In this document: in pieces, positions 20,721-21,951 of the stretch
Layout of the letters: each line of letters starts with the position of its first letter
Numbering within the stretch: the first letter of the stretch is position 1
From: Nitrososphaerota archaeon
GTDB lineage: Archaea; Thermoproteota; Nitrososphaeria_A; Caldarchaeales; JAVZCJ01
Length of the DNA stretch: 48,293 nt
Assembly (NCBI GenBank): GCA_038817485.1
Contig: JAWAZL010000010.1
Location: 1-48,293 of the forward strand
Direction of reading: 5' to 3'
Made by a program: the position numbers and the translations under genes
The notes under the pieces: generated by a model
Told to the model about the DNA's origin: nothing
Seen by the model: only the letters and a program-made list of their open reading frames with translations
Database searches by the model: none

Positions 20721-20780
20721 ATCAAATAAAAAAATATTTAGAAGCTTTTAAATTTTTAATATTAAACATAACACCTCTTT

Positions 20781-20873
20781 TTATTTCTTAAAATCTCTCA
20801 GAGACCCTGTGTTTTTCATCATCTTTTTTTCTAGTGAGCTGGTTTCATCATTGAGCAATATTATTTCTTAAAA
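20781..20873. repeat. 13-bp direct repeats flanking the C/D guide RNA
   Basis: TTATTTCTTAAAA occurs at 20781-20793 and again, exactly, at 20861-20873, enclosing the C/D RNA with an 80-base period. It could be a promoter/terminator pair sharing a sequence, or the trace of a small duplication. Confidence 0.55.
20792..20857 (-). ncRNA. C/D box small guide RNA (2'-O-methylation guide), predicted 23S rRNA targets
   Basis: Read on the minus strand, all elements occur in order. A short CTC/GAG terminal stem encloses box C ATGATGA (20845-20851), a guide AACCAGCTCA, a degenerate D' box at CTAG(A) (20830-20834), box C' ATGATGA (20816-20822), a guide ending ACACAGGGTCT, and box D CTGA (20798-20801). 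This spacing is normal for archaeal sRNAs bound by L7Ae, Nop5 and fibrillarin. The D guide complements AGACCCUGUGU, and the D' guide complements GUGAGCUGG. Both resemble conserved peptidyl-transferase segments of 23S rRNA as I remember them (AGACCCYGUG and GAGCUGGGUUUA). It begins about 33 bases after the upstream nuclease-like gene on the same strand and may be processed from its 3' UTR. Confidence 0.8.
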
Positions 20874-20889
20874 AGTAGTATTTTAATTT

Positions 20890-21603
20890 TTAAAATTGTT
20901 TTATTTTATTTATATCTATTTTTGAATTTAAAAATATTGTAATATGAGGTAAATTATAAAATTCTACATCAATCTTTTCAAGAAAATCTTTTAATGCTCT
21001 TACATAAAGTATTGTACAATATTCATTTGAATGAATTTTCGTTTCATATAAAGATAATATTATTGGTAAAATGTTTATTCTTATTAAACCCTTATTATAA
21101 TTTTTTTCTAATAATTTTTCGAAAATTTTTGCTCTATAGTATTGCTTTTTACTTATAATTTCTAAATTTTTTCCTATTAATGGTTTATTCCATTTTTTAC
21201 AATCAAATAATAATATTAAATTTCCTTTTATTGCTAAAATATCTATTTCTATTCTTTTCTTATTTTCCTTGATTCTAAAATTTTTAGCAATATCATATCC
21301 ATAAATATATAATATTTTTGAAGAAAATTTTTCAAAATCTTTCCAATTTAGGAATTTGGCTAATTCTTCTATATTTACTCCAGAAGTTAATGCTTCAAAA
21401 GCAATGGATAATTTTTCACTTCCATTTATTAAAATTTCTTGATTTATTTTTAAATTAATACTTTTTAAAACTTCCTCTAAAACATTTTTTGAAACATTTG
21501 AATATTCCATTAATTCCTTAAAAGAAATTTTTTCCTTATCTTTACTAAGTTTAATTATATTTAACAATATTCTCTGTTTAACTTCAGTTTTTATATTGGA
21601 CAA
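20890..21603 (-). CDS. Winged-helix plus PD-(D/E)XK (Mrr-like) nuclease-family protein
   Basis: Protein of 237 aa. Residues 1-60 form a winged-helix-like module (KISFKELMEYSNVSKNVLEE). Residues 85-210 form a restriction-endonuclease-like domain with Asp121 in RIEIDILAIKG and the D134-C-K136 strand in LILLFDCKKW, a D...(D/E)xK core with Asp in the Glu position. Such archaeal proteins are often annotated 'restriction endonuclease' but lack a partner methylase, as here. Real nuclease activity and target are unknown. Its 3' end runs into the C/D RNA. Confidence 0.72.
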   Translation of the reverse strand: MSNIKTEVKQRILLNIIKLSKDKEKISFKELMEYSNVSKNVLEEVLKSINLKINQEILINGSEKLSIAFEALTSGVNIEELAKFLNWKDFEKFSSKILYIYGYDIAKNFRIKENKKRIEIDILAIKGNLILLFDCKKWNKPLIGKNLEIISKKQYYRAKIFEKLLEKNYNKGLIRINILPIILSLYETKIHSNEYCTILYVRALKDFLEKIDVEFYNLPHITIFLNSKIDINKIKQF

Positions 21604-21657: not shown

Positions 21658-21951
21658 TTAAATTCCTAATTTTTCAAGTTTTTTCTTTGCTTTAGCTATA
21701 GCTTCAGCTTTCATTAAAGATACTTTTTCAGGCGAAACTTCTTCAATTGTTCTTCTTTTAATTTTTAATGCACAAATTCCATTTGGTAATAATTTTCTTT
21801 GTAAGCATACAGCATATTTGCATTTTCCACCTATGCATATATCATTAGCCCATTTGCATATATATTTTCTAGACCTAGTATCTAAAGCTTTTTGAGCACA
21901 TCTAAAAATTCTACAAAAAGGGGTGCAAGATTTTTCCTCAGATTTAGCCAA
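21658..21951 (-). CDS. Small cysteine-rich archaeal protein, probable metal binder
   Basis: Protein of 97 aa with eight cysteines in its first 60 residues, in CTPFCRIFRC, YICKWANDICIGGKCKYAVC and NGICALK, followed by a Lys-rich helix. The spacing suggests zinc or Fe-S binding, but I do not recognise the family. It is preceded by a 65-base gap and lies between the nuclease-like protein and the Ig-repeat protein, all on the same strand. A nucleic-acid-binding role would fit the basic C-terminus but is inference. Confidence 0.7.
   Translation of the reverse strand: MAKSEEKSCTPFCRIFRCAQKALDTRSRKYICKWANDICIGGKCKYAVCLQRKLLPNGICALKIKRRTIEEVSPEKVSLMKAEAIAKAKKKLEKLGI

Follow-up and report, generated by a model that had tools for sequence, protein, structure and literature searches.

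Between two minus-strand genes of the window (the whole 48,293-nucleotide stretch of archaeal DNA analysed here) lies a short segment in which the original prediction had read a C/D box guide RNA with both guides pointing at the peptidyl-transferase core of the 23S rRNA, and the question it raises is whether such an RNA is encoded there and which nucleotides it would modify. As had been proposed, the minus strand carries two ATGATGA boxes (C and C'), a CTGA as box D and a CTC/GAG terminal stem, and its sequence from 20857 to 20792 (TGCTCAATGATGAAACCAGCTCACTAGAAAAAAAGATGATGAAAAACACAGGGTCTCTGAGAGATT) runs in the order stem CTC, box C, guide, CTAGA, box C', guide, box D, stem GAG. We put the probability at about 93% that this is an archaeal C/D box sRNA with two guides, predicted from its sequence to direct methylation of C2064 and one nucleotide in 2577-2579 of the 23S rRNA (E. 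coli numbering), and the stretch very probably encodes a guide RNA aimed at two spots of the ribosome's catalytic centre. The features of the locus are:

20792-20857, minus strand: C/D box sRNA of about 60-66 nt (sequence, sole genome-wide pattern match and covariance model)
20853-20855, minus strand: 5' arm of the terminal stem, CTC, pairing with GAG at 20797-20795
20845-20851, minus strand: box C, ATGATGA (consensus RUGAUGA), conserved in homologues
20834-20842, minus strand: D' guide, CCAGCTCAC, complementary to own 23S 2703-2711 (GTGAGCTGG; E. coli 2574-2582)
20830-20834, minus strand: degenerate D' box, CTAGA, to be read as TAGA or as a CUGA that has gained an A, from sequence
20816-20822, minus strand: box C', ATGATGA, conserved in homologues
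20802-20811, minus strand: D guide, CACAGGGTCT, complementary to own 23S 2193-2202 (AGACCCTGTG)
20798-20801, minus strand: box D, CTGA, conserved in homologues
20795-20797, minus strand: 3' arm of the terminal stem, GAG, pairing with CTC at 20855-20853
20890-21603, minus strand: gene for a NERD-domain (nuclease-related) protein of 237 aa (Pfam PF08378, E 5.8e-6)

A strict scan of the 1.44-Mb genome for TGATGA-N18..40-TGATGA-N8..16-CTGA returned a single match, this sRNA, and the reversed-pattern control of the same scan returned none. The sRNA has a GC content of 38% against 26% in the surrounding window, and folding of the single strand gives nothing notable (z +1.3), which is normal for C/D RNAs. 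It had been called unannotated, and in Rfam 15 no family reached its gathering score; the sub-threshold matches were nearly all C/D box families and covered exactly the strand and span of the sRNA, led by SNORD29 (21.9 bits against a cut-off of 48) and followed by SNORD24 and snoPyro_CD, which fits the class and is no proof of it. The promoter and terminator scans use bacterial consensus sequences and are therefore uninformative for an archaeon.

The 23S gene of the genome analysed (G000, a member of family f1) lies at G000:C2:101877-104938 and contains AGACCCTGTGG at 2193-2203 and GTGAGCTGGG at 2703-2712, which we take to be E. coli 2060-2070 and 2574-2583, with GACC and GAGCUGGGUUUA as the conserved reference points for counting. 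Archaeal LSU and SSU models match this genome and, like its fibrillarin and Nop5 genes, mark the organism as an archaeon. Some 510 nt of sequence separate the two targets, both of which form part of the domain V core. The D guide forms 10 contiguous Watson-Crick pairs with AGACCCUGUG and the D' guide 9 with GUGAGCUGG, in each case the best run in the organism's own 23S and 16S rRNA (next best 8 and 6, respectively), where 9 consecutive Watson-Crick pairs are the usual significance criterion (PMC4644070). Complementarity to the organism's own 23S rRNA, on which the original prediction had staked its refutation, was found for both guides: the proposed match of the D' guide to a conserved 23S segment was borne out, whilst that of the D guide holds over 10 bp of AGACCCUGUGU and fails at its last base, which is mismatched because the 23S has AGACCCUGUGG. 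Counted from box D by the N+5 rule (PMC4644070), the predicted methylation falls on own C2197, corresponding to E. coli C2064, which would be the second C of GACC as had been anticipated. One anatomical detail was mistaken, in that the D' target had been placed next to the P-loop uridines; U2584 and U2585 beside GAGCUGGGUUUA belong to the central loop of domain V, and the P loop is at E. coli 2251/2252.

Conservation carries most of the argument. A covariance model built from the G000 sRNA and three homologues (G000, G001, G018, G021) found clear homologues in 15 of the 44 genomes of the order, G000 included, and these belong to two families of that order, f1 and f3. All 15 members scored E 8e-10 or better before the next match dropped to about 24 bits; the value for the G000 sRNA itself (E 8.4e-20) comes from a sequence that is part of the model. 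The order-wide search found no homologue in f2, in f4 or in genus g11 of f3. Two f3 copies had first been found by pattern search: from a scan of 398 genomes with TGATGA-N-GGGTYTCTGA only G000, G001, G018 and G021 were kept, and the other matches, which resemble coding or chance sequence, were dropped. The assignment to the C/D class is upheld by the 14 other genomes, in which boxes, stem and guides are kept.

The nearest relative, G001 (same genus), carries a syntenic copy that is unchanged from the C box through the D' region and has a large gap in the flank after the sRNA; its D guide differs by GGGTCT to GGGTTT, with pairing retained through a G.U pair. Across the homologues box C reads ATGAWGA or ATGAGGA and box C' TGATGA or TGAAGA, whilst box D is CTGA in 13 of the 15 members and CGGA in two. 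Both guide cores are present in every member, AGGGTY in the D guide and an invariant GCTCA in the D' guide, and the D target (AGACCCTGTGG/AGACCCUGUGG) is the same wherever the 23S segment is readable. The f3 D guide, CCATAGGGTC, makes one G.U pair with this target and keeps 10-12 bp, and the predicted D duplexes of the members computed amount to -19 to -22 kcal/mol in f3, -19.5 kcal/mol in G000 and -16.7 kcal/mol in G001. The terminal stem is CTC/GAG in G000, CTC/GGG in G001 and CCC/GGG in the others, and is paired in all 15 members (45 of 45 cells) with one pair varying between C-G, U-A and U-G; covariation in this three-pair stem is slight, as one pair changed on both sides and 76 of 500 shuffles were equally good. 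A phylum-wide search with model R2 gave weaker matches of about 20-33 bits, and among the 15 best most belong to f5 and have a D guide of a different sequence (CCCTAGGGTAT, or one close to it), so we reject them as a different sRNA and claim the C2064 family for f1 and f3 only.

The f5 loci (L218, L219, L221-L223, L225-L228 and L230-L232, mostly around 1501-1560) hold a conserved C/D sRNA of their own (GCCGATGAAGAATCTAAAAAGCTGA...GATGATGCACCCTAGGGTATCTGAGGC and close variants), the D guide of which may pair with the conserved GATACCC stretch of the 16S rRNA. As a separate observation, the 23S genes of several relatives span 3.5-5.5 kb (LSU loci L171, L172, L173, L175, L176 and L215 in G021, G029, G034, G002, G004 and G015) against about 3.06 kb, and the LSU match of G033 falls in three pieces; these long or split genes suggest that the rRNA of many relatives contains introns or insertions.

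Box-like words can also come together by chance in AT-rich DNA, and about 1-2% of random places show a 10-bp rRNA match beside CTGA. Shuffled guides reached at least 10 bp (D) in 4 of 300 cases and at least 9 bp (D') in 10 of 300, and 4 of the 218 CTGA sites of the window, that of this sRNA included, have 10 bp of complementarity within the 14 bases that precede them, or about 1% of the other sites; either guide alone would be only suggestive. A chance arrangement has a negligible probability all the same, as this is the sole strict match in the genome, both guides are at their best site in the rRNA, and, above all, 15 genomes of two families conserve the two guides together with boxes and stem, which refutes it and bears out the original argument that two such guides are unlikely by chance. 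The conserved unit could alternatively be a k-turn element in the 3' UTR of the NERD mRNA, bound by L7Ae and controlling that mRNA, with the rRNA matches secondary. The NERD stop codon is 32 nt before the sRNA, and of the 15 genomes only G015 has no NERD homologue near the sRNA; in the 14 others one adjoins it, lying upstream on the same strand in nine (G000, G001, G018, G021, G027, G034, G036, G039, G040) at a distance of 0-32 nt, or about 170 nt in G018; control of mRNAs by L7Ae through k-turns is, moreover, suggested for archaea (PMC5539422). Against this, in five genomes of genus g3 (G003, G006, G009, G012, G024) NERD and the sRNA lie tail to tail on different strands, and G015 has no NERD homologue nearby, yet guides and boxes are kept, and complementarity to the rRNA is retained in all members. 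The sRNA has changed strand relative to NERD while the adjacency was kept, which argues that the RNA itself is selected and not a 3' UTR element of NERD, and we consider control of the NERD mRNA very improbable. As part of the guide RNA reading, the NERD gene is a possible source of a precursor transcript, and the 3' ends of genes are a usual location of archaeal C/D sRNAs (PMC7994747).

The D' site is less sharply placed than the D site. The original prediction had called the D' box degenerate and its exact site uncertain, and rightly: CTAGA, identical in G001, gives an N+5 position of C2579 if read as CU(A)GA, G2578 if read as TAGA and A2577 in the f3 register. The f3 members have a clear CTGA as D' box, or CGGA in three of them, placed two bases further on, with N+5 at A2577; the C-to-D' spacing in the f1 genus is unlike that of its relatives. 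We take A2577 and C2579 to be yeast Am2946 and Cm2948 from the shared sequence round UGAGCUGGGUUUAG. Both yeast methylations are experimentally mapped (snR71 for Am2946, snR69 for Cm2948; PMC5199042), and counterparts of both occur in plants and of A2577 in human too (PMC11542601). The D guide may be the only one that directs methylation (at C2064), the D' guide with its degenerate D' box binding 2574-2582 without methylation, which would make the RNA a guide combined with a folding clamp that joins two strands of the peptidyl-transferase core. The departure of the f1 CTAGA from CUGA speaks for this, as does the f3 D' pairing, which has only 7-8 core pairs supplemented by G.U pairs or by an ACCC/GGGU extension with a bulge, and an invariant GCUCA core nonetheless; bridging sRNAs have also been described, as have double-guide sRNAs of which one guide is non-productive (PMC4644070). 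In most f3 members, however, the D' box is an exact CTGA that puts N+5 at A2577, a position methylated in yeast, human and plants, and we judge a silent D' guide unlikely, though a serious competitor.

For the double-guide sRNA we infer transcription, RNP assembly, methylation and a chaperone role, along the following lines. The transcript would probably be processed from read-through of the NERD gene or made from a weak promoter of its own, and would fold into a k-turn (C/D with the CTC/GAG stem) and a k-loop (C'/D'), on which L7Ae, Nop5 and fibrillarin would assemble; genes for fibrillarin (PF01269, E 3.2e-92) and Nop5 (PF01798, E 7.9e-72) are adjacent at G000:C1:44210-45641. Pairing of the D guide with AGACCCUGUG would direct 2'-O-methylation to C2064 (own C2197), and pairing of the D' guide with GUGAGCUGG to one nucleotide in 2577-2579, C2579 with CU(A)GA or A2577 in the register of the relatives. 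Simultaneous binding of both strands could hold the peptidyl-transferase core together during subunit folding, and the stability of the guide pair across two families is consistent with a folding role.

Several other features surround the sRNA. At g3 loci L187, L192, L193 and L194 (about 1536-1566) the sRNA overlaps the 3' end of NERD in antisense. A 15-codon open reading frame (ATGTTTAATATTAAAAATTTAAAAGC...TGA; window 20721-20769, minus strand) stands behind a GAGGTG motif and stops just before the ATG of a 106-aa open reading frame (20720-20400); its 5' part is deleted in G001. The sequence TTTTAAGAAATAA flanks the sRNA on both sides (20860-20875 and 20772-20788, minus strand) and is not kept in G001, and the pair is either a direct repeat or a coincidence in AT-rich DNA. 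Further along, a 97-aa cysteine-rich protein (CTPFCRIFRCAQKAL...CKWANDICIGGKCKYAVC; 21658-21951, minus strand) is conserved in G001 and has no Pfam match.

The sRNA resembles the archaeal C/D box sRNAs of Sulfolobus, Pyrobaculum, Pyrococcus, Ignicoccus and Thermoproteus (PMC4644070, PMC7994747): it is of similar size, has boxes C, C' and D closed by a short terminal stem, has its targets set by the N+5 rule and situated in the rRNA close to the peptidyl-transferase centre, and is located at or near a gene 3' end. It differs in having no Rfam family at cut-off. The class is well known, whilst the family itself is new in that Rfam 15 does not contain it. The main texts of PMC4644070 and PMC7994747 do not mention C2064 and 2577-2579 as a target pair. 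The paired guides are conserved over two families, whereas only about 17% of predicted sites are common to the (more distant) species of PMC4644070. Guides on strands that are distant in sequence and close in the fold have been described and a folding aid proposed (PMC4644070); like the bridging 'RNA chaperone' sRNAs sR15 and sR17 of N. equitans (PMC4644070, Table 3), this sRNA targets rRNA strands far apart in sequence and near in the fold, but sR15 and sR17 pair with both strands of one helix, whereas the guides of this sRNA match separate segments within the central core of domain V. The D' guide addresses the same 23S/25S stretch as yeast snR69 (Cm2948), snR71 (Am2946) and their plant counterparts; snR69 and snR71 are separate eukaryotic snoRNAs, and convergence on the D' site is possible.

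For the D site, we take C2064 to be yeast C2406, counted from Um2417/Um2421. Its equivalent was not found among the mapped methylation sites in the eukaryotic lists and main texts examined, and a full-text literature search for this methylation returned no paper. On this basis the sRNA might add an undescribed ribose methylation at C2064, beside the A2450-C2063 pair of the catalytic centre and always together with 2577-2579, and so serve two families as a dedicated clamp for folding the peptidyl-transferase core, an extension that we regard as rather doubtful. The locus represents an sRNA family that is absent from Rfam 15 and retained by at least 15 species of archaea, with a predicted methylation at C2064 and a second guide targeting the stretch that bears the eukaryotic Am2946 and Cm2948. 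As both families have kept the two guides on one RNA, it offers a good test case for whether double-guide sRNAs assist the folding of the ribosome's catalytic core in addition to its methylation.
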